DNA of 34,204 nt. It comes from a virus. Under the pieces are notes generated by a model. It did not search any database and was not told the DNA's origin. It was given only the letters and a program-made list of their open reading frames with translations. A program made the position numbers and the translations under genes. Within the stretch, counting starts at the first letter, position 1. The number at the start of each line of letters is the position of its first letter. This document shows positions 425 through 33,975 of this stretch, piece by piece. The stretch is taken from positions 1 through 34,204 of the IMG/VR virus record IMGVR_UViG_3300007516_000066. One strand, 5' to 3'.

Positions 425-724
425 ATGAAAAAGGTAAAATTATTTAAGGAGTTTGTTAGTGAATATAGGAATGTTGCATACGATACTCAAATTCCAGGAG
501 AATATGAACTAGTTATTGGTGCAAATAAATATAGTATTAACGTCGCTGGTTTTGAAAGAGAAGGAGATAAGACCGATAGCCTTTATCTAATGGACAACGA
601 TCCTCGAAAAGATATTATAGGTTCTGTTATTGTAAAGAACAGTGACATGAAAAGATTATCTAAAGGAGAAACTGTTTCAGCTAAAACATCAAAGGGTGAA
701 GAGGCTAAAATAACACGAATATAA
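425..724 (+). CDS. Small capsid-targeted internal protein (hypothetical)
   Basis: This 99-residue protein begins MKKVKLFKEFVSE, which fits the M-K-x-x-K-x-F-x-x-F-[ILV]-[NS]-E pattern seen in nine places in the window. In T4, similar N-terminal peptides (for example MKTYQEFIAE of the internal proteins) direct proteins into the prohead and are removed by the gp21 protease after [IL]-x-E. The remainder (about 86 residues) is a lysine/glutamate-rich domain that looks beta-strand rich, with no family I recognise. It follows the frameshifted internal protein by 10 bases, probably in one transcript. Packaging into the head is inferred from the targeting motif only. Confidence 0.75.
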   Translation: MKKVKLFKEFVSEYRNVAYDTQIPGEYELVIGANKYSINVAGFEREGDKTDSLYLMDNDPRKDIIGSVIVKNSDMKRLSKGETVSAKTSKGEEAKITRI

Positions 725-755: not shown

Positions 756-2630
756 ATGGCTTTACAAAAACTAAGAGAATACTTTAATGACACTAACAGG
801 GAAATGTTCAGTGATATGTTAAAGAATAGGGTGCTTATAACTGAAAAGGTCGCAGCTCCCACATTTCTTGTTAGAAGAAAAATGGATGGTTTTGAATACT
901 TTAAGTCTTCAAACACTGATAAGCTAAATTTAGTAGATAGGACTATTATTTCACTATATGAAATTGCTATAAATTATATGCAAAGTTTGCCAGTATCTAT
1001 TAAAAATGAAATACCAACTGATTGGAGATTTGGTTTTGAATACTTACCAGAGGTTGAAGCCTCTAAGGTATCATATCAAAGTACTCCTACTAATAATTTA
1101 ATATTGACACATATTCAACAAATTGGAGAAAGTGGAAAGATTAAAAAAACAATAAACGATCCAGATGTCTTAAAGAAATGGGCAAAGAAATTAAATGTTC
1201 AAGAACCATTAATAGTTTTTGACGGATATTTATCTCAAGTACAGAAAGACGAATTGACTGAACTTTTATCAATGAGTGACCGTGAATTTTCAGATTCATT
1301 TGATTATTTAATAGAAACTAAAGATAAAACTAGTTTTACATTAAAGATGTTTAAACTTTTTAATAAAAGTATTAGTTCAACGTCATTAAATACTGATCTT
1401 GAAAGTGAAATTGACGGCCTTATCATTAATTTTATAGATGGTAATAATATGAATTCGTTTAAACTTGAAGATTTTACTAGAACATATAACGTTGAGGCCT
1501 TTAAGGAATCAAGTCATACATACCAAATAGCAGTCACAGACTTTTTAGAATATTTAGCTCAATATGACTTAGACGAAATTATACTAGAAGAAGACAGCGC
1601 AGAATATAGATACCTTGAAGCAATGTCAATCATTTTTAATTCTTATATTGACAAAAACTCCTCAAAATATATAGGAGTTAATTTTGAAAGTGCAGAATTT
1701 TCTTCTGCTGATTCATTCAAGTTAAATATAAAATACATTAAGAATGAAAAGACTCTTAAATTTATATCAAACGATGTTTTAGCAGAGCTTTTTAAAATGG
1801 TTTTAAGTTCTTTCAGAAAGAAAAGAACAAAAACATCAGATCTTATAGACAAAGATACTATGTCTAGAATGAATGAGTTAATAGTCAAAATAACTGAAAA
1901 GATATTTGCCGAAAAGACTGATGAGAACTCAATACATGACTACCGAAACTTTATGTTAAATAATAAGATTAAAGCTTCTGTTGATTTGAATGAGGCTCTT
2001 AAAGTAAATCATACTGAAGGAGGAAAAACACCAGTTAATATGTTCGTTGGTAGATTTCAACCATTTACATTAGGACATGCAAAGGTATTGGAAACTATAC
2101 ATAAGGAAAATGGGTTCCCTGTTGTTGTATTTTTAGTTAAGGCTAAAGCACAAAAGAAAGGTGATGAATTTAGCAAACCATATGACGAGAAAACACAAAT
2201 TGAAATGTTCAATAATGTTAAGAAACAATATCAATTCCTAAAAGAAATATATGTTATTCCAACAGGTGGTATTGATACTATGTTTAATGAAATGAGACCT
2301 AAATATGAGCCAGTATTATGGGGAACCGGAAGTGATAGAATGATTAGCTATGGATATCAGGTCAATAATGATTCATATAGAGATCAATTAAACGTTAGAG
2401 CTGATTTTGGACTTTTTGAAATTCCTAGAACAGATAACGATATTTCTGCAACTGCTGTCAGAAATGCATTATTAGCAGGAGACGAGAAGCTATTTAAAAC
2501 ACTAACACCAAAGGCAATTCACTCAATGTACTTTGAGTTAAAAACAAAGATAGAAGATTCAATGGGTGTTGTCGCAGAATCATTCAACGATATATTAACA
2601 TTTAGTCAATTTATTAAAAAAGATATATAA
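756..2630 (+). CDS. Fusion protein: ligase-like nucleotidyltransferase domain plus NMN-adenylyltransferase-like domain
   Basis: This 624-residue protein has two recognisable parts. Residues about 35-245 carry the order of motifs of the covalent nucleotidyltransferase (RNA/DNA ligase) superfamily: K42-M-D-G (motif I), W90 with FEY at 94-96 (motif III-like), E218-I-D-G-L-I-I (motif IV) and FKLED at 235-239 (motif V-like). Residues about 426-600 form a Rossmann-like nucleotidylyltransferase: GRFQPFTLGH at 432-441 (HxGH-type, with T in place of the first H) and ISATAVR at 563-569, as in NadM/NadR-type NMN adenylyltransferases. The middle (250-425) is helical and unassigned. Possible roles are RNA or NAD-linked repair, but activity is not shown by sequence. 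The first 140 codons lie beside capsid-targeted genes, so it may belong to the late set. Confidence 0.7.
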   Translation: MALQKLREYFNDTNREMFSDMLKNRVLITEKVAAPTFLVRRKMDGFEYFKSSNTDKLNLVDRTIISLYEIAINYMQSLPVSIKNEIPTDWRFGFEYLPEVEASKVSYQSTPTNNLILTHIQQIGESGKIKKTINDPDVLKKWAKKLNVQEPLIVFDGYLSQVQKDELTELLSMSDREFSDSFDYLIETKDKTSFTLKMFKLFNKSISSTSLNTDLESEIDGLIINFIDGNNMNSFKLEDFTRTYNVEAFKESSHTYQIAVTDFLEYLAQYDLDEIILEEDSAEYRYLEAMSIIFNSYIDKNSSKYIGVNFESAEFSSADSFKLNIKYIKNEKTLKFISNDVLAELFKMVLSSFRKKRTKTSDLIDKDTMSRMNELIVKITEKIFAEKTDENSIHDYRNFMLNNKIKASVDLNEALKVNHTEGGKTPVNMFVGRFQPFTLGHAKVLETIHKENGFPVVVFLVKAKAQKKGDEFSKPYDEKTQIEMFNNVKKQYQFLKEIYVIPTGGIDTMFNEMRPKYEPVLWGTGSDRMISYGYQVNNDSYRDQLNVRADFGLFEIPRTDNDISATAVRNALLAGDEKLFKTLTPKAIHSMYFELKTKIEDSMGVVAESFNDILTFSQFIKKDI

Positions 2631-2643
2631 ATAAATATAAATA
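2622..2643 (+). promoter_or_regulatory. Tandem late-promoter-like boxes (two TATAAATA)
   Basis: TATAAATA occurs at 2626-2633 and again at 2636-2643, the first within the longer GATATATAAATA at 2622-2633. They lie just before the ATG at 2651; the first overlaps the stop codon of the fusion gene. They match the T4 late box and the GATATATAATA family found before head genes. Confidence 0.45.
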
Positions 2644-2650
2644 ATAAGAA

Positions 2651-4606
2651 ATGGAATTTATCATAACAAATTTTAATGATTTCGTAAATGAAGCAATTAC
2701 ACCTGGAGAGAAAAAAGTTGCGGCGTTCGTCACAAAAACCGCAAAAGAATACGGATATTCAGAATCCGATGCTGTATTTTTTATTAAATCAACAATAGAA
2801 AAACTAGGATTAGGCGTAGATGAATCTTTAGTAATATATGAATCAATGTCTGATCTTGATTTAATAGCAAAGGAATCAAAAGATTTTAAAGATTTTGCAA
2901 AGCAAGCAAAGAAAGAATATCCTCAATTTGCAAAGGGAGATGACAAAGAATTAATACAATGGCTCCAGTCAATATATGATAGTGCAATTGATGAATCTTC
3001 AAGTAAATTAATTGACTTTAATTTAAAACCTGGAGTAATTTTAAACTTTAAGGATGGAGAAACATGGAAAGTCACTAAAGTTATTGGAAATGCAAATAAC
3101 CCAAGAGGAATCTTAGCTACTCCATATGGAGACACTAAAAAACAATACGTTTCAGTTGCAATTGAATTTACAATGGATCAATTAAAATCTGTTGAAGCTT
3201 TAGATGAATCTAACGTTAATAAAAACAACAAATTGTCTATTACAAAGACATCTAGAGTAACTGGAGGACATAATCCAACAATCAGATTTGATTTTTCTGA
3301 TGGTGAGGAATTACAAACAAAAGCAGATGGATATGGTATTGAGAATGAAGATGAGATTTATCAAACTTTAATATCAAAGTGGTTTCAAAATGAATCTGTT
3401 GAAGCTTTAGATGAATCTACTCTCTCAATAGAAGTATCTGTAAGAGATGCTAGGAAAGCCAATGAAATTCTTAGAGATAATGGAAACATTAAATATAAGA
3501 ACGACGGATCCAATGTTTTTATATTCAAAAAGAAATCAAGTTACGAAGATGCTTTAGAAGCTTTTGGCAACTTGGAAATAGAGATTATTGTTGAATCCAA
3601 CAATACTGAAGGCAAAATCACACTTAAAAGACAATATACTGAAAATCATCCAGCAATTAGAGTAGGTCACCATGCTAAAATCAGAAACAAAGTAATAGAA
3701 GCATTAAAGGACGGACAAATTACACAAGAAGAATTCTATACAATACTAAAAGAAATGACATCTGACTCAGCCCGTTGGATGAAAAGAAATTCACATTATT
3801 TTAACGTTTCTGAAGATGGAATTACATTATCAAAAACAGGAAGTACTGTTCTCAAGGGCATATTAACTGAAAAAACAACAAAAAATCCTGAAGTATGGGT
3901 TCCGGGTGGATTTGACAAAGAAATATCTAAATATCCAAACAAAAAAATAGACATTGGAGTTGTTTCTAAATTAGCTAGAAAATATGAGGTTGATCTAGAA
4001 GATGCAATAAAATATGTTGAATATGGATGGGCAATAGACTTACAAGAAAATATAAACAACACAATTATGAAACACGTAAAATTATTTGAAGCATTTGTTA
4101 ACGAAAAAGCATATAGAATGACAGGACCATACTCTGCAAAGGGTATAGTAGGAAAAGTACTGCAATCTTTTAAAAAACAAATTGAAAGAGTACAATACAA
4201 TGGAGATGCAGACGATACTCTGAAGGAAGTTAATAAAGAATGGGAAAAGTTCTTTGAATCTGCAACTGATATCATTTTAGAAGAGGTTGAAAAAGCAGTT
4301 AAATCGATGGATGGTGTTTTATTCGTAAGTGCAACACTTACAAAAGAATGGACAGCAGATGTTATTAACAAACTTAACAGAGAAGGTAGCGATACTTTAC
4401 ATATTTCACCAGGAGAAATTGTAATTAATGTTGGTTTTATGGATGATGTTAATGCTCAGAAATACTCAAGAAAATTAGGAGGAATGACGAACGCACCAAC
4501 TGAGAGTAACGGAAGTGTTGATCTTCATGGATCGTTTGACATGTCAGTTGGAGATAACAATGTTGAAATTAGAGCAACTGAAGTTATTCAAATAGACTCA
4601 AAATAA
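2651..4606 (+). CDS. Modular, polyprotein-like capsid-targeted internal protein
   Basis: This 651-residue protein starts with a targeting-like peptide, ITNFNDFVNEA (residues 5-15). It contains a second complete targeting peptide at residue 473 (MKHVKLFEAFVNE), preceded by an A-rich stretch resembling a gene leader. Candidate prohead-protease sites of the form [ILV]-x-E followed by S, A or K occur at E14, E58, E115, E186, E255, E315 and E485. The segment SVEALDES appears twice, 69 residues apart, from a 27-base exact DNA repeat. Between sites lie compact domains: a beta-rich module (116-186), an alpha/beta module (187-255), and a module with RWMKRNSHYF at 375-384. The architecture suggests several internal proteins fused in frame and cut apart in the prohead. 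No enzymatic motif is recognised. The ATG at 4067 could also act as an internal start giving 179 residues. Confidence 0.75.
   Translation: MEFIITNFNDFVNEAITPGEKKVAAFVTKTAKEYGYSESDAVFFIKSTIEKLGLGVDESLVIYESMSDLDLIAKESKDFKDFAKQAKKEYPQFAKGDDKELIQWLQSIYDSAIDESSSKLIDFNLKPGVILNFKDGETWKVTKVIGNANNPRGILATPYGDTKKQYVSVAIEFTMDQLKSVEALDESNVNKNNKLSITKTSRVTGGHNPTIRFDFSDGEELQTKADGYGIENEDEIYQTLISKWFQNESVEALDESTLSIEVSVRDARKANEILRDNGNIKYKNDGSNVFIFKKKSSYEDALEAFGNLEIEIIVESNNTEGKITLKRQYTENHPAIRVGHHAKIRNKVIEALKDGQITQEEFYTILKEMTSDSARWMKRNSHYFNVSEDGITLSKTGSTVLKGILTEKTTKNPEVWVPGGFDKEISKYPNKKIDIGVVSKLARKYEVDLEDAIKYVEYGWAIDLQENINNTIMKHVKLFEAFVNEKAYRMTGPYSAKGIVGKVLQSFKKQIERVQYNGDADDTLKEVNKEWEKFFESATDIILEEVEKAVKSMDGVLFVSATLTKEWTADVINKLNREGSDTLHISPGEIVINVGFMDDVNAQKYSRKLGGMTNAPTESNGSVDLHGSFDMSVGDNNVEIRATEVIQIDSK
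3186..3212 (+). repeat. 27-base direct repeat, copy 1
   Basis: Identical to 3393-3419 and in the same reading frame, encoding the SVEALDES segment with a predicted protease site (L-D-E before S). The copies are 207 bases (69 codons) apart. Confidence 0.9.
3393..3419 (+). repeat. 27-base direct repeat, copy 2
   Basis: Identical to 3186-3212. It encodes the second SVEALDES linker of the modular internal protein. Identity at DNA level, including third codon positions, points to recent duplication or recombination. Confidence 0.9.
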
Positions 4607-4607
4607 T

Positions 4608-4838
4608 ATGAAAATCACTAGCAGGAAATTAACAGAAAATGTAACACCAGGCGACATCGGAGGTATGGGAGCTACTTTATTACCTACCGCTACTGAAATT
4701 GGATCAGGTGATGTTTTATCAGGACCTGGGAATGCTGAAGAGGAATATAAAAAGAAGCGCAAGAAAATGAAACACTTAAAGACATTTGAATCTTTCATAA
4801 ATGAAGCATATATTTCACGTATCATCGAAATACATTAA
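4608..4838 (+). CDS. Small Gly/Pro-rich protein ending in an orphan capsid-targeting peptide
   Basis: This 76-residue ORF starts one base after the previous stop. Residues 14-40 are glycine-rich and low in secondary structure (GDIGGMGATLLPT, then GSGDVLSGPG), followed by a charged EEEYKKKRKK helix. At residue 54 (base 4767) a full targeting peptide begins, MKHLKTFESFINEA, but only nine further residues follow before the stop. Either the peptide is the C-terminal tail of this protein, or the ATG at 4767 begins a separate 23-residue peptide left over from a truncated internal-protein gene. The position just before a terminator fits the end of a transcription unit. Confidence 0.6.
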   Translation: MKITSRKLTENVTPGDIGGMGATLLPTATEIGSGDVLSGPGNAEEEYKKKRKKMKHLKTFESFINEAYISRIIEIH

Positions 4839-10776: not shown

Positions 10777-12174
10777 ATGATTCTTGACATAGAACAAAGA
10801 GAAAAAGATGTAATTATTTCATATTACAATACAGAAGGCGAAGTATCATTTAAACAATATCCAGTAGACAAATTTCAAAACTGGTACGTATGCGATGATA
10901 AAGATAGAGCGGCTAGTCCAGATTATAAAAACTGGGATGGACGTTCTGTTAAACTAGGAAATGGAAAGAAATTTAACAAGTTTTCAATTCTTTATTTTTT
11001 AGATAGTCTTTCAGAAAAGGACAAAGCAGAGTTAACAGCATATAATATGCCTAAAACATACTTTGTCGATATTGAAACAGAAATAGTAGATGGCTTCCCA
11101 AAGGCAGAAGAAGCTAAAAGTAGAATATTATCATTTTCAATAATTACACCGGACCGTAAAGCAATAGTACTAGGGCTAGAAGATATTGCCTCTGATAAGA
11201 TTCAAAAGATACAAGATGATACTAATGAGTATTTTAAAGATTTTGATATGGATTGGGAATTCAAGTACCATAAGTTTAAGTCTGAATATGACATGGTCTC
11301 AACATTCTTAATGAAATTCTTACCTAAGTTCCCAATGATGACAGGATGGAACTTCATAAATTATGACTGGCAGTATATTGTCAACCGATGTAAGAGATTA
11401 CAAATAGACATATCAGAAGTGGGTATGACAAAAACAGTCGATAGTAGAGACACTAGACCACTTCATATTGGAATCTTAGATTACATGCAATTATATGATA
11501 AGTATGATAGAAGTGTAAAGGTGAAAGAATCTAATTCACTTGATTTTGTTTCAACACATGTGCTTAAACTTAATAAAATTAAGTTTACAGGTTCATTACA
11601 AGATTTATATAGAGACAATTTTGTTAAATATATATACTATAATGTGGTTGACTCAGTATTGGTCTATTACATCGATCAAAAATTAAAATCGATGGAAGTA
11701 CTTTTAACACTAGCAAACATAACAAACATGCCTTTATATAAAGCAAGTTCACCAGTTGCGGTGACTGAATCTATTATGGCTAGAAAGCTTGCTGAACAAG
11801 GAATGCGAATCGGTAGTGAGGAGAAAAATGATAGTCATAAAGATGGGCAATATGCAGGAGCATATGTTAAGGAGCCAATTCTAGGATATTATGAAGGAGT
11901 AAGTGCATTCGATTTTGCTTCGCTCTATCCTTCAATTATGCGTCAATTTAATATTTCACCAGATGCTTATATCGAAAAGATCAATCAAAGTGAAATCGAT
12001 ACTAGAAGAAATGATAAAAATGTAATTGTATGCGATAATGGTGTAGTATATAAAACAGAAGATTCTATTCTTAGAAAAATATTAAGTGATCTATACAATA
12101 AACGTAAGGATTACAAAAAAACTTCGTATGAATACTACACAAAGGCAGAAAACTTAAAGAAAATAATCAAATAA
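10777..12174 (+). CDS. 43A: DNA polymerase, N-terminal piece (exonuclease and palm motif A)
   Basis: This 465-residue protein is the first half of a family B polymerase like T4 gp43. It has all three 3'-5' exonuclease motifs: D98-I-E100 (Exo I), N192-FINY-D197 (Exo II) and Y288-NVV-D292 (Exo III). It also has polymerase motif A, D379-FASLYPS, with one of the two catalytic aspartates. It ends soon after LYNKRKDYKK, in the fingers region, at a normal stop codon. Motifs B and C are missing and lie in the ORF at 17211. Both pieces look intact, so an active heterodimer is likely. Together they total 863 residues against 898 for T4 gp43. No intein or intron boundary motif is evident at the break. 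Confidence 0.93.
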   Translation: MILDIEQREKDVIISYYNTEGEVSFKQYPVDKFQNWYVCDDKDRAASPDYKNWDGRSVKLGNGKKFNKFSILYFLDSLSEKDKAELTAYNMPKTYFVDIETEIVDGFPKAEEAKSRILSFSIITPDRKAIVLGLEDIASDKIQKIQDDTNEYFKDFDMDWEFKYHKFKSEYDMVSTFLMKFLPKFPMMTGWNFINYDWQYIVNRCKRLQIDISEVGMTKTVDSRDTRPLHIGILDYMQLYDKYDRSVKVKESNSLDFVSTHVLKLNKIKFTGSLQDLYRDNFVKYIYYNVVDSVLVYYIDQKLKSMEVLLTLANITNMPLYKASSPVAVTESIMARKLAEQGMRIGSEEKNDSHKDGQYAGAYVKEPILGYYEGVSAFDFASLYPSIMRQFNISPDAYIEKINQSEIDTRRNDKNVIVCDNGVVYKTEDSILRKILSDLYNKRKDYKKTSYEYYTKAENLKKIIK

Positions 12175-13195: not shown

Positions 13196-13459
13196 ATGTT
13201 CTTTTTTGATAAAAAAAGTCATTATAAGAACTTAATAGATAAAGAAATACTAGAAAATAGAATTAAAAAGTATTCTCTTAGAAATCTTTAAAAAGAAGAA
13301 GCTCAAAGACTGAGAGTTAAATTAGCAGTCGCAACTAACCGAAATGGCGGTAAAGTATTTAGAATATGTGACGGTGATAAAAATCCAATGAAAGATCCAG
13401 AAAAAGTTAAACAGGTCTCAGGTATTAGAAACCAAACTAAAAAAATAAAATTACAATGA
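13196..13459 (+). pseudogene. Decayed small ORF with an in-frame stop, possibly a mobile-endonuclease remnant
   Basis: From the ATG at 13196 the frame reads MFFFDKKSHYKNLIDKE to a TAA at 13289-13291. It then stays open in the same frame for 55 more codons to a TGA that overlaps the next gene's ATG (ATGA at 13456-13459). A single change of TAA to TTA would restore an 87-residue ORF. The second half (KLAVATNRNGGKVFRIC, then KNPMKDPEKVKQVSG) resembles the NPM-containing NUMOD-type DNA-binding segments of phage homing endonucleases, though only weakly. Its location inside the split-polymerase/RNR gap fits a decayed mobile gene. It could also be two short unrelated peptides. Confidence 0.5.
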
Positions 13460-13872
13460 AAAACTTAAAAACATTTGACAATTTCTTAAATGAATCAAAT
13501 AAAGACAGTTACAAAAATTTACGTAAATTTCTAGAAACTACTCTTACTGATGAAAAAAAAGGTTATTACTGGATATTTACGAATAGTACACTAAAAGGAG
13601 ATAAACTTTCTGGAAACATAAATGATAATGGTGGTTTAGGGAAATATTCTAGAACAGAAGTAGAAGATGATTTAAAGAATGATAAAAAGGAAGTTGATAA
13701 AAAAATTAAATTATTAGAACAAGCAATTAAAGAATTTAATGAAGAAAATAATGTAAATTTAATATTTACTTATAAATTAAATAATCCTAAAATCACAACC
13801 AATACATGGCAAGGCTCTGTTGTATATGATTCAGAAAATCTAGTAGCAAGTGTAATAATAACTCAAAATTAA
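13456..13872 (+). CDS. Capsid-targeted internal protein (hypothetical)
   Basis: This 138-residue protein begins MKNLKTFDNFLNES, with the prohead-protease pattern L-N-E before S. The body is lysine/asparagine/glutamate-rich with a long charged helix (about residues 70-100) and a C-terminal beta region (NTWQGSVVYDSENLVASV). No family is recognised. It lies between nrdB and nrdA, and its start overlaps the stop of the decayed ORF. A likely late head-packaged protein amid early metabolic genes suggests insertion. Codons are even more A-rich than in the flanking RNR genes. Confidence 0.75.
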   Translation: MKNLKTFDNFLNESNKDSYKNLRKFLETTLTDEKKGYYWIFTNSTLKGDKLSGNINDNGGLGKYSRTEVEDDLKNDKKEVDKKIKLLEQAIKEFNEENNVNLIFTYKLNNPKITTNTWQGSVVYDSENLVASVIITQN

Positions 13873-15651: not shown

Positions 15652-16344
15652 ATGAAACACTTTAAATTATATAATGAATTTCTAAACGAAGCAATATCTG
15701 TTAAATATAAAAGGGATTCTAAAAAAGTAGTTACAGTTTACAATAATTTATTCTCTAAGAAATTAACCGATTTAGGTGCAATGACACAAGAAGGTAAATT
15801 AGGTTGTATTAAATACCTATTCGAATTAGCAATGGAAGACGCAAACTTTTCAAGAGAAGGTTTCAAGATCTCAAAAAACATTAAAGGTTCAATTGGTACC
15901 TTTGAAATTAAAATGCCAGGTTTAGGAAACTATTTCATTAAAATCGGAGCAACTACAACCAAGAAAATATTAGATCTATACTATAGTGATATCGCATCAG
16001 CAGCTAATTATTCTGGAATTGGAATTGTTGAAGGTACTGCGCTTTATTTAGAAAGTATCAAAGAAGAAGCAGCAGGCCAAGCGCTTTTAAACGAGTTTAA
16101 TATGGCGTTTGAGGGTAACGAAGCGATAACTGAATCTACCGTAAAATTTAATAACAAAAAAGTAAATATTAAATCTATAGAATTGAATGGTATAGATACT
16201 AATGATTACCCTGATTTTGCTGATGCATATGCTGAATACGCTGAATATTCTAATGGTAAAGAATTAACTGACGCTGAACTAGACGATTTTAACGACCAAC
16301 ATCCTGATATTATTCAAGAACTAGCGCTAGACTCATTCCAATAA
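15652..16344 (+). CDS. Capsid-targeted internal protein with two modules
   Basis: This 230-residue protein begins MKHFKLYNEFLNEA, a clear capsid-targeting pattern with L-N-E before A. Residues about 20-155 form one alpha/beta domain (AMTQEGKLGCIKYLFELAMEDA; GTFEIKMPGLGNYFIKIG). After AITES, which has the protease-site form I-T-E before S, a second acidic domain of about 68 residues follows (STVKFNNKKVNI to the end, with DDFNDQHPDIIQELA). This two-module layout with an internal candidate cleavage site resembles the larger chain at 2651-4606. The leader shares 18 bases (15643-15660) with that of the gene at 141. It sits alone between two terminators with its own late-type box, so it is an independent cassette inside the polymerase gap. 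Confidence 0.8.
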   Translation: MKHFKLYNEFLNEAISVKYKRDSKKVVTVYNNLFSKKLTDLGAMTQEGKLGCIKYLFELAMEDANFSREGFKISKNIKGSIGTFEIKMPGLGNYFIKIGATTTKKILDLYYSDIASAANYSGIGIVEGTALYLESIKEEAAGQALLNEFNMAFEGNEAITESTVKFNNKKVNIKSIELNGIDTNDYPDFADAYAEYAEYSNGKELTDAELDDFNDQHPDIIQELALDSFQ

Positions 16345-17210: not shown

Positions 17211-18407
17211 ATGACAATTGACGAATTAATACTAAAACCAGAAGAGGATCTATCAAGCGAAGAGATTAAAATATTGGTTGAACATTATTCAATGATGTCA
17301 GCTAAATATACAGCATACGAACAGGCTGTTAAGGTGATGCTTAGCTCTATTTATGGTGCATTTGGTAATAAATGGTTTCACTTTTTTAACATAGACATCG
17401 CAGAATCGATTACATTACAAGGTCAATCTACGATTCTATATTCTGAAAAGATTCTTAACAAATACTTTCATGAGTTTTGGCTTAAAGATAGGCAAGTTCA
17501 TTCCCATTTTAATATCTCTATTAGAAATAAATTAGTAAGACCATCTGTTGTTTATATCGACACTGATTCCGCATATGTGCAATTCGAAGAAATGTATGAA
17601 TCTATCGAGTGGAATGGTGATTCAATGTCAATTGACAAGTTTATTATGGAGTTGTATAACTTTAGACTTAAAGATTATATTTTTAAGTGTATGGAAAAGT
17701 ATTCTGAAGCAACGAATACTGAAAACTTTCTTGTATTTGAATTAGAAACAATAGCATACTCTGGGATATGGTTAGCTAAGAAAAAATATCTACAGAACAT
17801 ATCATGGGAAGACAGACTCGATATTAATGATAGATACCCTTCGCTCAAAAAGATAAAAACAATAGGATTTGATACTATTCAAAGTTCAACACCTGCTCTT
17901 GCAAGAAAGCAATTAACTGAGATTATTAAATTGATTCTTTCTGAAAAACCTACAGCTTCTTTGCTAAAAAAGTTAGTAGATTATTTAAAACTATGTAAGA
18001 AGGAGTTTCAATTAGCTAGCGTTGATGAAATTTGTTTTAATAAAAGAACTAATAACATTGAAAAATACATAATAGATGACACTATCGAATTTCAGTACGG
18101 TTTAAAATGTCCTCCAAATGTCAAGGCTGCAGGATTTTATAACTTCTTAATGAATAAAAACCCAAAGTTAAAAAATAAATACAAAATGATCGGCAATGGT
18201 GAGAAGTTAAAAATATATCAATGTAAACATACAACATGTGAGATATTTGCGTATCTACCCGGAGCGCATCCGTATGAAATTGCACCTAAAGTTGATTATG
18301 AACTACAATTTGAGAAAAGTGTTATAGATCCATTAAATAGAGTGCTTACCGCAGTTGGGTTACACACTCTAAATAGAAACTTAATATACTCAACATCATT
18401 ATTTTAA
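17211..18407 (+). CDS. 43B: DNA polymerase, C-terminal piece (fingers, palm motif C, thumb)
   Basis: This 398-residue protein is the second half of the family B polymerase. It has motif B K41-VMLSSIYGAFGNKW (incoming nucleotide, fingers helix) and motif C Y115-I-D117-T-D119-S (catalytic aspartate pair). The KKYLQN and later KTIGFDTIQSSTPALARKQL segments correspond to the T4 thumb-side KKRYALNVW and KIMGLETQKSSTPKAVQKAL. It ends SLF, like the clamp-binding tail of T4 gp43. The first about 35 residues form a new N-terminal extension rich in acidic residues. It starts 6 bases after the clamp, over 5 kb from its N-terminal partner, and has an independent start and stop. Confidence 0.93.
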   Translation: MTIDELILKPEEDLSSEEIKILVEHYSMMSAKYTAYEQAVKVMLSSIYGAFGNKWFHFFNIDIAESITLQGQSTILYSEKILNKYFHEFWLKDRQVHSHFNISIRNKLVRPSVVYIDTDSAYVQFEEMYESIEWNGDSMSIDKFIMELYNFRLKDYIFKCMEKYSEATNTENFLVFELETIAYSGIWLAKKKYLQNISWEDRLDINDRYPSLKKIKTIGFDTIQSSTPALARKQLTEIIKLILSEKPTASLLKKLVDYLKLCKKEFQLASVDEICFNKRTNNIEKYIIDDTIEFQYGLKCPPNVKAAGFYNFLMNKNPKLKNKYKMIGNGEKLKIYQCKHTTCEIFAYLPGAHPYEIAPKVDYELQFEKSVIDPLNRVLTAVGLHTLNRNLIYSTSLF

Positions 18408-30597: not shown

Positions 30598-32358
30598 ATG
30601 ACTAACAACTTACTGATCCTAGAAAGGTCATCTACGGAATTAGAGTTTAAAAAAGATGGTGGAACTTATGTTCTTGAGGGTATTTTTGGAGAAATCGATA
30701 AGAAGAATCGTAATAATCGAATATACACAGAATCAGAATATTTACCGCAAATCGAAGCTCTTCAGGCTAAAATTAAGTCATCAAAACTTTTAGGTGAATT
30801 AGATCACCCACAGACGTTTGATGTTTCTTTAAAAAATGTATCACATATTATTGAAGAATTAGCATACGACAGCGTTACCAAACAGGTTAAAGGAAGAATA
30901 AGGTTATTAGATACAGATGCTGGAAGACAAGCAAAAGCACTTGTTGACGCCGGAGTTCCTTTACAAATTTCAAGCAGAGCAGCAGGTGCTGTAGAATCTA
31001 ATGGTACTGTAAAGATCAAGCAATTATTTACATATGATTTAGTAGCAGATCCAGGATTTGAAAATGCTGAATTGAAACGAGTTAATGAGGCATATGGCTT
31101 TGTTAACGAAGGAAATGACCTATTTATTTACGAGATAAATAATATAGATGAAAATGAAAAACAAACAATCGAAAATATAAACGAAACAAAAATGGCAGAG
31201 TCTAAATTTATTACGGTTGAGGATTTTAACAAGTACTCCAAGTATCTTTCTGAAGAAATCAAATCCATTAAAGATGGTATGAACACTTTAACTGAAGATG
31301 AGTCAACTGATTCTCAATTAGAAACACTAAAACAATATGCAGATTATTTAGCTAAGCGCTTAGATGAATCTATAGCCTATACCGAACATGTTGCTGAAAA
31401 AACAGATAATGGTATTCAATACACAGAATCACTTGCAGAGAAATTAGATCAAGGTATTCAATACTCTGAACATATTGCAGAAAGTGTTGATGCTATCAAG
31501 AACTATACAAATTATTTAGCAGAATCCTATAATGAAGGATCAGCTTCTTATGAAGACTTAATTAAATACACAGAATATTTAAGAGAGAACTTAGAGAAAG
31601 TTACTGAATATGCTGAATATGTTGCTGAAACAGTTAATACTAATCTATTGTTAGAAGATGGCGAAGCTGCTGGTTTACCTGCAGAAGAACTTGAAGACGA
31701 GACTAAAGATGTTACTATAGATGATATAGACGCTGATGGTAATGTAATTGACAGTACACCAGAAGACGAGGAAGATGAATTAGAACTTAAAGGTTCTGGT
31801 GATGCTGCTGGTAAAGACGTAGATGCTATGGAAGCTTATAAAAATTCAATCACTTCTAAGTTAGAAGCTATTGTTGAAAGGGTTAATGCTAAGAAATCTA
31901 GCAATCCATCATTCTTTAAATTCATATCTGAAGAAAAAGTAAATGAATTTAATGCATTAACAACTGAAGAGAAATCTAAAATCACTAATGCGGTTGAAGG
32001 CAAAGGTTATTTAACTGAAGGACAAATCTTAGGTTTATGGGCTAACTCATTAATGGGAGCTGTACCTACAAATGAAACAACACTTCCAGTTATCTCAATG
32101 ATGCCAACAGAATATCATGCAACATGGACTAAATTGTCTGAAGCTAAGAAAAACCAAATTATTGCACAATCTAAAATGCAAAAATTAGAAACTTCTTATC
32201 AGGTTGCTAATTTCTGGCAAACTAGGGATCTTAGAGAAACTTCATCAATCATGGAGAAAATCACTATGATTAACGAAGCTAAGATTGAAGATGTTAAAAC
32301 ACTTGGATATGACGCAACTGAAATTGGAGCAGAAATCGCAAAAAGATTTAAAAAATAA
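30598..32358 (+). CDS. 21-22: Prohead protease fused to scaffold core protein (gp21-gp22 fusion)
   Basis: Residues 1 to about 175 are a T4 gp21-type serine protease: GELDHP with H70, ISSRAAG with S125/S126, and DLVADPGFENAEL. After a linker (180-198) the remainder is helical scaffold. Seven repeats of about 14 residues beginning Y-x-x-x-[VLI]-A-[EK] run from about 247 to 350 (YADYLAKRLDESIA, YTEHVAEKTDNGIQ, YTESLAEKLDQGIQ, YSEHIAESVDAIKN and three more). An acidic stretch and a C-terminal helical domain follow. In T4 these are two genes. An in-frame ATG at 31192 (residue 199, MAESKFITVEDF) follows GAAACAAAA, like the capsid leader, and could give a 388-residue scaffold alone. The predicted core is cleaved by its own protease. 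Confidence 0.88.
   Translation: MTNNLLILERSSTELEFKKDGGTYVLEGIFGEIDKKNRNNRIYTESEYLPQIEALQAKIKSSKLLGELDHPQTFDVSLKNVSHIIEELAYDSVTKQVKGRIRLLDTDAGRQAKALVDAGVPLQISSRAAGAVESNGTVKIKQLFTYDLVADPGFENAELKRVNEAYGFVNEGNDLFIYEINNIDENEKQTIENINETKMAESKFITVEDFNKYSKYLSEEIKSIKDGMNTLTEDESTDSQLETLKQYADYLAKRLDESIAYTEHVAEKTDNGIQYTESLAEKLDQGIQYSEHIAESVDAIKNYTNYLAESYNEGSASYEDLIKYTEYLRENLEKVTEYAEYVAETVNTNLLLEDGEAAGLPAEELEDETKDVTIDDIDADGNVIDSTPEDEEDELELKGSGDAAGKDVDAMEAYKNSITSKLEAIVERVNAKKSSNPSFFKFISEEKVNEFNALTTEEKSKITNAVEGKGYLTEGQILGLWANSLMGAVPTNETTLPVISMMPTEYHATWTKLSEAKKNQIIAQSKMQKLETSYQVANFWQTRDLRETSSIMEKITMINEAKIEDVKTLGYDATEIGAEIAKRFKK
31181..31194 (+). promoter_or_regulatory. Possible internal translation start for the scaffold
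   Basis: ACGAAACAAAAATG ends in the in-frame ATG at 31192-31194. AAACAAAAATGGCA here matches the bases around the capsid gene start at 32527, arguing for a genuine initiation site. Confidence 0.45.
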
Positions 32359-32526: not shown

Positions 32527-33975
32527 ATGGCAAATTTAATTAATGAATCAGAAATCAGAGCAACATGGTCTCCGATTATTGAATCAGCAACAGGAATCAA
32601 TGACGCAAGCAAATTAGCTTGGATGTCAGAGTACTGTCACAATCACAAACTTTATGAAGATGCATCTACAATGTCTTTAGGTACTGCAGGTAATATCTTC
32701 GGTATGGGAGCAACAGTTCTACCTTCAGGTTATGCAAGTGGTGTTTCTACTGTAAATGGTTCTGGAGACAAATCTCCTTCACTATTACCTCTAGCAATGC
32801 AAGTTGCTGCACAAACTATCGGACTTGACTTAGTACCAGTAGTTCCTATGGCTGGACCAATGGGATTATTGTCTTACTTAGATTTCGTTTATGAAGGTGG
32901 TAAAACAGCAGGATCTACTTCGCCTACTTATATTAAAGGTAGTGCTGCACTTTTAGGAACTGGTAATATAGCTGCTGTTGAAGACGAAAACGGTGCTTAT
33001 ACATTTATCGGTTCTTCAAGAATTGATGGTAAATCAATCTTTAAAGTAGGAACAATCGTCGGTGCTACTGTTGCTGCTGATTTAGAAGCTTTTGCGCTTG
33101 GAGCTGGTGTAACTGTTGAACTAGTTAACGCATTGGAAGATCATATCAAAGGATTTACTGCTGCTAATGTTTCAGGAGCACCATTCTCAAGAGATGCTGG
33201 AGAACAAACTCCTGATAAAATCATGGGTCTTTCTCTACACTCTAAATCTGTTTCAGCTGAAACTTACCAAGTTGCTGCTGCAGTTACAAGAGAACAAGTT
33301 CAAGATTTGAAACAATTCGGCGTTGATGCAGTTGCTCAAGTTGAAGCAGTTTTAACTAATGAGTTGACTCAATCTATTAACCAACACATCCTAGGAAGAA
33401 TCAGATCTTTAGGTACAACTAACGTTACAGCTGCATTTACTGCAGGTGGTTTTGATTTAACATTGCCTACTGCAGCTTCTCTAGTTGGAGGTGAAACTTT
33501 ACCGTCAGTACACCGTAGAATCTTATCACAAGTTCTTGCAGCTGCTAACTTAATTGCTAACAGAGGTCGAAGAGGTGCTGGTAACTTCGCAGTATGTGGA
33601 CCACAAACTGCTACAGTTTTACAATCAATCGCTGGATTCGTTGCTAACCCAATGGCTAACACGTTTGCACAAGCTGCAGGAGCAATCTATCCTTTAGGAT
33701 CTGTTGCTGGAATCAATATCTATACTGATCCAACATTGGAATGGTCAGATTATTCTATCGCAGTTGGTAGAAAAGGCGATGGTAACGGTCCTGGTATCGT
33801 ATTCATGCCTTACTTAATGGCTGAATCAGTTCAGACTATTGCTGAAGGAACAATGGCTCCTAAGATTGCTATCAAATCAAGATTCGCATTGGTTGACGCT
33901 GGATTCCATCCTGAAACTCAATACGTTAACTTTGACGTTAAAGGTTCTTGGACAAACTTATTAACATTAGCTTAA
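32527..33975 (+). CDS. 23: Major capsid protein (T4 gp23)
   Basis: The 482-residue protein (T4 gp23: 521 before cleavage) has the conserved block LPLAMQVAAQTIGLDLVPVVPMAGPMGLLSY (about residues 87-117). Later come TREQVQDLKQFGVDAVAQVEAVLTNELTQSIN (about 256-287) and the C-terminal MAPKIAIKSRFALVDAGFHPE. The N-terminus MANLINESEIRATWSPIIESA carries two [IL]-x-E-S patterns (after E7 and E19) that could be protease sites; T4 gp23 is cut after residue 65. Base composition shifts to more GC-balanced, alanine- and glycine-rich codons, as expected for a highly expressed capsid gene. A strong terminator follows. Confidence 0.95.
   Translation: MANLINESEIRATWSPIIESATGINDASKLAWMSEYCHNHKLYEDASTMSLGTAGNIFGMGATVLPSGYASGVSTVNGSGDKSPSLLPLAMQVAAQTIGLDLVPVVPMAGPMGLLSYLDFVYEGGKTAGSTSPTYIKGSAALLGTGNIAAVEDENGAYTFIGSSRIDGKSIFKVGTIVGATVAADLEAFALGAGVTVELVNALEDHIKGFTAANVSGAPFSRDAGEQTPDKIMGLSLHSKSVSAETYQVAAAVTREQVQDLKQFGVDAVAQVEAVLTNELTQSINQHILGRIRSLGTTNVTAAFTAGGFDLTLPTAASLVGGETLPSVHRRILSQVLAAANLIANRGRRGAGNFAVCGPQTATVLQSIAGFVANPMANTFAQAAGAIYPLGSVAGINIYTDPTLEWSDYSIAVGRKGDGNGPGIVFMPYLMAESVQTIAEGTMAPKIAIKSRFALVDAGFHPETQYVNFDVKGSWTNLLTLA

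Follow-up and report, generated by a model that had tools for sequence, protein, structure and literature searches.

Phages are already known to have targeting leaders and processing at LxE, as well as scaffold proteins that are cut several times and injected proteins of the polyvalent kind. In T4, the internal proteins IPI, IPII and IPIII, together with Alt, carry a capsid-targeting leader that is cut by gp21, the prohead protease, which cleaves after [LI]xE (PMC9026906). Many head proteins of the giant phages phiKZ and SPN3US are cut after x-x-E by a gp21-like protease (PMC5694885, PMC10052503), and the polyvalent proteins described by Iyer et al. in 2017 are thought to be packaged and injected (PMC5512222).

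The window, i.e. the whole 34,204-nt stretch of DNA analysed here, represents 34 kb of a T4-like phage whose host probably belongs to the Bacteroidota. At positions 2651-4606 of its plus strand lies an ORF of 651 aa with an ATG start, hereafter W651. We consider it quite probable that W651 is a head-targeted polyprotein, from which the prohead protease would release several cargo proteins of the virion. Its features are the following.

2651-4606, plus strand: ORF of the putative cassette polyprotein, 651 aa
2651-2692, plus strand: first capsid-targeting leader MEFIITNFNDFVNE, residues 1-14, candidate cut after E14; the form is common to the leaders of relatives
2693-2824, plus strand: cassette of residues 15-58, duplicated together with the leader in L005 and L006
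2825-2995, plus strand: cassette of residues 59-115, sites E58 and E115; the homolog in G011_288 begins with VISE and ends with VVSE
2996-3208, plus strand: cassette of residues 116-186 (LNFKDGETWKV), site E186 at its end
3186-3212, plus strand: SVEALDES linker, copy 1 of an exact 27-nt repeat
3209-3415, plus strand: cassette of residues 187-255, between the two linker copies
3393-3419, plus strand: SVEALDES linker, copy 2 of the exact 27-nt repeat
3416-3595, plus strand: cassette of residues 256-315, 53% identical to residues 491-547 of ORF140 of phage MaF61
3596-3871, plus strand: core cassette of residues 316-407 (ITLKRQYT...), site E407 at its end, present in >25 relatives
3872-4048, plus strand: cassette of residues 408-466 (WVPGGFDKEISKYP), DLQE466 at its end; at the E407 position, where it begins, G009_913 has an extra cassette
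4049-4066, plus strand: relic 5' leader AATATAAACAACACAATT, translated as residues 467-472, like the leader of G005 8217 and of window gene 15652
4067-4105, plus strand: second capsid-targeting leader MKHVKLFEAFVNE, residues 473-485, candidate cut after E485, ATG kept
4106-4603, plus strand: C-terminal cassette of residues 486-651, a stand-alone gene with its own leader in about 15 relatives

A first-pass annotation had claimed a leader at residue 1 and a second one at residue 473, and both are found, each of the T4 capsid-targeting type. With a slash marking the candidate cut, MEFIITNFNDFVNE/A and MKHVKLFEAFVNE/K both fit a short N-terminal CTS-type leader ending in a prohead-protease site; their likeness to the T4 leader itself is presumed from the known pattern. 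Leaders of the MEFIITNFNDFVNE type occur on dozens of genes in the relatives, and in L005 and L006 the whole leader plus module is duplicated in tandem. The seven [ILV]-x-E sites listed in that annotation are all present in the translation, namely E14 (FVNE/A), E58 (GVDE/S), E115 (AIDE/S), E186 (ALDE/S), E255 (ALDE/S), E315 (IIVE/S), and E485 (FVNE/K). The sites are real but their choice was selective, as E407 (ILTE/K) and E466 (DLQE/N), which relatives support as junctions, were omitted, and bare [ILV]xE occurs at chance level (17 matches versus 13.1 in shuffles, p=0.14), so that we dropped its count as evidence. The longer motif [ILV]xE[AGSC] is enriched, with 9 matches versus 2.5 in shuffles (p=0.0005). 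The linker SVEALDES, described earlier as exactly duplicated, occupies residues 180-187 and 249-256 and is identical even as DNA, forming a 27-nt exact direct repeat with copies 207 nt apart, whereas the number of such repeat pairs expected by chance is about 1e-8. Common motifs combined with a meaningless fusion or an assembly error could account for a bare motif at chance level, but this explanation is strongly disfavoured by all the comparative tests given below and by the independent IMG/VR contig L003, which has the W651 ORF at 100% identity, so that the ORF is not a chimera of one assembly.

Searches of W651 against Pfam and PHROG gave no match, and thus no recognised effector or metallopeptidase domain; a PDB sequence search returned nothing useful, and Foldseek with the whole W651 model found no match in the PDB at E<=0.001. 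A weak titin match (residues 119-250, about 23 bits per domain) was taken as chance, since it spans two cassettes with low identity. The AlphaFold2 models, from which the MAFFT alignments of fragments A1 and A4 were left out because C-terminal homologs were misplaced in them, have a mean pLDDT of 55 for W651 and 53 for residues 1-486; the C-terminal cassette (486-651) has a confident predicted fold on its own, with pLDDT of about 80-90. Low-confidence gaps include E115, E407, E485 and, in the first model, E14; a helix of modest confidence begins at E58. Residues 180-343 have pLDDT below 50, so E186, E255, and E315 are outside the usable model. The low confidence at E115, E407, and E485 fits sites that would lie outside folds, in a model that covers only part of the sites.

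A gp21-like S77 protease plus scaffold is present in the same genome as W651, and the window also holds the major capsid protein (MCP) and further genes with leaders.

30598-32358, plus strand: S77 prohead protease fused to scaffold, the proposed processing enzyme (PF03420, 2.6e-11; phrog_207, 7e-40)
32527-33975, plus strand: MCP with conserved KLYE44/D; LYE or IYE is kept in relatives and MaF61
425-724, plus strand: other leader gene, MKKVKLFKEFVSE
13456-13872, plus strand: other leader gene, MKNLKTFDNFLNE
15652-16344, plus strand: stand-alone leader gene, FLNE/AISVKYKRD; corresponds to an internal cassette, VNE/AIQVQYKRD, in L112/L115
34077-34204, plus strand: other leader gene, MKRIMLFEEFINE, incomplete because the window stops within it

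The nearest deposited proteases come from uncultured phages of 462-735 kb, and Lak phages and Sphingomonas phage PAU match too. KLYE44/D is the probable propeptide cut of the MCP, judging from its conservation: K[LI]YE is retained in the MCPs of the group, close to where gp23 of T4 is cut. The mature MCP of PAU comprises 520 of 585 residues according to N-terminal sequencing (PMC5646251), and it starts within one residue of LME64. These MCP data agree with proteolytic cleavage after [LI]xE, the specificity known from T4.

Several other genes in the window and its relatives are worth recording. The gene at 4608-4838, after the polyprotein, has near its start IGGMGATxLPT...GSGD, also found in many MPSTSKAQQ proteins of relatives, and this matches a conserved arm of the mature MCP (FGMGATVLPSG...GSGDKSPSLLP); relatives with the arm-like motif are G009:171894-, L073-L081, L091, and L103. 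The motif is a possible capsid-lattice-binding or mimicry peptide. The gene adjoining the polyprotein on the other side (756-2630) has a cytidylyltransferase-like domain, and the 429-aa product of L004:1769-3055 bears a leader and the ligase-like motif KTDGQN; NAD or nucleic-acid repair functions may be encoded close to the cargo genes. In L017, a RimK-type ATP-grasp plus Zn-protease-like protein (3232-4698) and an AAA ATPase (1873-3225) both start with capsid-targeting-like leaders, which suggest that the head cargo of these phages may include enzymes. PAU (L121, JQ362498, about 106.0-113.7 kb) has a run of small genes starting with MK[ST][LI][ST]xLYExKLNE[AS] or similar, two of them labelled internal capsid protein by the depositors, and these N-termini are probably another version of the targeting leader. 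By eye, a DNA polymerase B-like sequence of the window is apparently split (10777-12174 and 17211-18407), with other genes in between.

Relatives were collected from IMG/VR, with 15 loci for the W651 ORF and 36 and 13 for two longer relatives; most are uncultured and akin to one another, so that cassette pairs are not fully independent. A search of 84,980 cellular genomes revealed no relative, and L011_427, G009_1029, and G009_913 had no tblastn match in GenBank phages. The sites had been placed near domain boundaries, in a polyprotein layout, and the homology blocks shared with relatives do end at sites. The 67 block ends lie at a median of 4-6 aa from a site, compared to a mean of 33-43 aa for random placement, and none of 5000 random shifts came as close (p<=2e-4). 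Moreover, stand-alone leader genes of one phage are internal cassettes of another, and of 69 distinct pairs, 49 have the cut-site Glu of the leader in exact alignment with an internal [ILVM]xE, against a background of 2.7%; counted by family, the figure is 13 of 17, or 11 of 15 without two doubtful families. Window gene 15652 and its L115 counterpart are one such pair, and IAE/ATTSWGKMM versus SIDE/ATTSWSRMM is another. Upstream of the ITLKRQYT cassette, 27 contexts keep Glu at P1 (24/27), I, L, V or M at P3 (24/27), and N, D, S or T at P2 (25/27), whereas the other linker positions turn over.

The last two results bear on the possibility that W651 is an uncut multidomain internal protein that loses only its first leader, the linkers serving as flexible joints or as repeats that bind the core. 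Cleavage of the chain has so far been deduced from sequence comparison, and some motif matches are located inside a folded domain, as in the MaF61 chain presented below; yet leader cut sites align exactly to internal [ILV]xE, and P3 and P1 are selectively kept while the remainder of the linker changes; a mere joint would have no need of the protease motif. We therefore regard an uncut chain as very unlikely.

The polyprotein reading is also supported by the way in which whole cassettes come and go. Four related chains of 921-1029 aa (L106/L109/L110/L111) differ by whole cassettes, with indels bounded by VSE or ESVVNE linkers, and the linker DNA of the 1029-aa gene is a repeat family of seven copies. 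In G001:133341 (661 aa), an 82-aa cassette is copied exactly in tandem with its border at ESFVNE. Cassette 116-186 is shuffled into polyproteins of L007, L010, L011, L012, and L017, with SLNE/S at the position of E186 in G006_340, and G009_913 has an extra cassette of about 65 aa at the position of E407, between MVSE and QIFE. For cassette 187-255, no homolog was found elsewhere. Comparative support is strong for candidate sites E14, E186, E255, E407, and E485, and moderate for E58, E115, E315, and E466. By this sequence comparison, cassette borders fall at [ILV]xE sites and the units are separable.

Motif enrichment points the same way. [ILV][NDST]E[SAG] is enriched 3.7x in leader proteins and 1.8x in other proteins, with control motifs at about 1x or lower. 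When 618 proteins from six phage contigs were ranked by excess of [ILV][NDST]E[SAGNK], W651 took fourth place: two of its relatives and another polyprotein scored higher, and close behind it came the protease-scaffolds, which are expected substrates of the prohead protease. Such chains and protease-scaffolds top the ranking both in the window group and, taken on its own, in MaF61. Since the motif was refined on the same data, this enrichment is weaker than the border, equivalence, constraint, and indel tests.

The cultured Flavobacterium phage MaF61 is the only GenBank phage match to W651. A homolog of cassette 256-315 occurs there inside the 1404-aa protease-scaffold ORF140, between NLNE and ALNE, and ORF140 carries the same protease domain as the window protease (32% identity, E 4e-19). 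In the window, a gene of its own, at 30598, encodes the scaffold-protease, and W651 is not a coiled-coil scaffold of the gp22 type that adjoins the protease or is fused with it. Separately, MaF61 ORF123 (L067:46272-49046) encodes 924 aa that include a NUDIX domain and eight candidate sites, and apparently gives this cultured phage a second polyprotein. One of its motif matches, VVNE402, lies inside the NUDIX domain (residues 332-439), so a motif match need not be cut. A Tenacibaculum PTm1 match to a MaF61 cassette was rejected as a chain, being a separate 85-aa gene.

The occurrence of such a cassette inside a scaffold-protease favours the main rival of the cargo reading, in which the chain is core filler: it would be cut in the prohead like gp22, gp67, and gp68, and its pieces would exit before packaging as scaffold material. 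In T4, gp22 and other core proteins are indeed cut into several fragments by gp21 (PMC9026906), and the gp22 pieces are mostly expelled, so cutting alone would be no proof of cargo. Nevertheless, the cassettes are conserved, partly predicted to fold, and interchange with stand-alone leader genes resembling those of T4 internal proteins, and filler need not retain a domain such as the NUDIX domain of the MaF61 chain. We consider core filler unlikely, and cargo the better reading.

The origin of the second leader could be followed among relatives. Residues 473-651 form a separate leader gene in about 15 of them, therefore the window chain is a real fusion. ATAAACAACACAATT lies directly upstream of ATG 4067 (codon 473), and the earlier remark that the second leader is preceded by gene-leader-like sequence proved correct: the stand-alone gene has a 5' leader similar to the 18 nt of AATATAAACAACACAATT, which by this resemblance are what remains of it. 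The first-pass annotation proposed that two genes had fused by loss of a stop; the fusion stands, but simple stop loss explains it less well than a deletion. G005_587 and G009_913 run on past DLxEN for about 300 aa that are missing from the window, and in G005 a separate leader gene directly follows this stretch. Because these relatives keep the 300 aa and the stop, the simplest account and best explanation from the comparison is an in-frame deletion that took a C-terminal domain of about 300 aa together with the stop. In L005, another leader gene underwent a comparable fusion and its ATG is now GGG, while the two genes are still separate in L006, which is 95% identical. In the window, a third leader, MKHLKTFESFINEA (4767-4838), is in frame inside a 76-aa ORF from 4608, with a stop soon after; the same type of arrangement extends into a longer domain in L007, so the window copy looks truncated.

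With its ATG and A-rich leader kept, similar to those of the stand-alone gene, the second half of W651 might also, or mainly, be made separately by internal initiation at 4067. We found no start signal specific to leader genes except A-rich sequence, which other genes have too; the reading frame runs through the junction without a stop, and the comparable fusion in L005 lost its ATG. We hold internal initiation to be rather unlikely, and it would be compatible with the polyprotein reading rather than exclusive of it.

For the polyprotein, we propose the following route, in which targeting, cutting, cargo release, and injection are inferred by analogy with T4. The N-terminal leader, probably with the one at residue 473, would bring the chain into the prohead core, where the phage's own S77 protease would cut after the Glu of [ILV]-x-E at the leaders and inter-cassette linkers. 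About seven or eight proteins of about 44-170 aa would then be freed inside the head, as for the T4 internal proteins, and, in the least certain step, may stay as internal cargo able to leave with the DNA. The repeated linker may double as a recombination joint; the repeat pattern is observed, and through it cassettes would be gained, lost, and swapped among chains, stand-alone leader genes, and the MaF61 protease-scaffold. In the window, a separate leader gene would have become the C-terminus of the chain through the in-frame deletion. We lean, with somewhat less assurance than for W651 itself, towards a general form of this proposal, in which a group of T4-like Bacteroidota phages has modular cargo polyproteins of up to about a dozen proteins per chain, cut by the head-maturation protease and reshuffled among chains, genes, and scaffold at linkers serving as recombination joints.

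If W651 is cut as we propose, the polyprotein strategy extends to the injected proteins of tailed phages, and known protease sites become markers with which numerous small cargo proteins that lack annotation can be listed from sequence. Cargo of this kind, as with IPI and Alt in T4, would meet the host first, making the cassettes candidate counter-defence or takeover factors, and cassette swaps at repeated protease-site linkers suggest fast evolution of cargo sets.

In the open-licence literature, we found no tailed-phage chain with cargo units separated by and shuffled at prohead-protease sites, which does not prove absence. The considered parts of the phiKZ and SPN3US reports (PMC5694885, PMC10052503) likewise gave no splitting of one chain into several mature products; ejection proteins are cut several times there, but in N-terminal propeptides, whereas the candidate sites of W651 are between cassettes. 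W651 resembles the polyvalent proteins of phages and conjugative elements in having many domains per chain in varied architectures (PMC5512222), but those have known effector or enzyme domains and partly their own metallopeptidase, whereas W651 is without these and has head-maturation protease sites at its junctions. One chain, a virus-encoded protease, and sites between products also recall RNA-virus polyproteins, as an analogy only; we claim no homology, and W651 belongs to a tailed DNA phage with processing proposed inside the capsid precursor. Like T4 gp22, gp67, and gp68 (PMC9026906), W651 has several prohead-protease sites, with cuts that are putative in its case, but T4 core fragments are mostly expelled, whereas the pieces of W651 are distinct conserved domains that also occur as separate leader genes. 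A further likeness is to T4 IPI, IPII, IPIII, and Alt, with a 10-19 residue leader ending in x-E and, as for the T4 internal proteins, an S77 prohead protease in the same genome and a presumed role as head cargo (PMC9026906). T4 has one protein per leader, whereas W651 unites about seven cassettes in a single chain, which has sites of its own between them and another leader in its interior.
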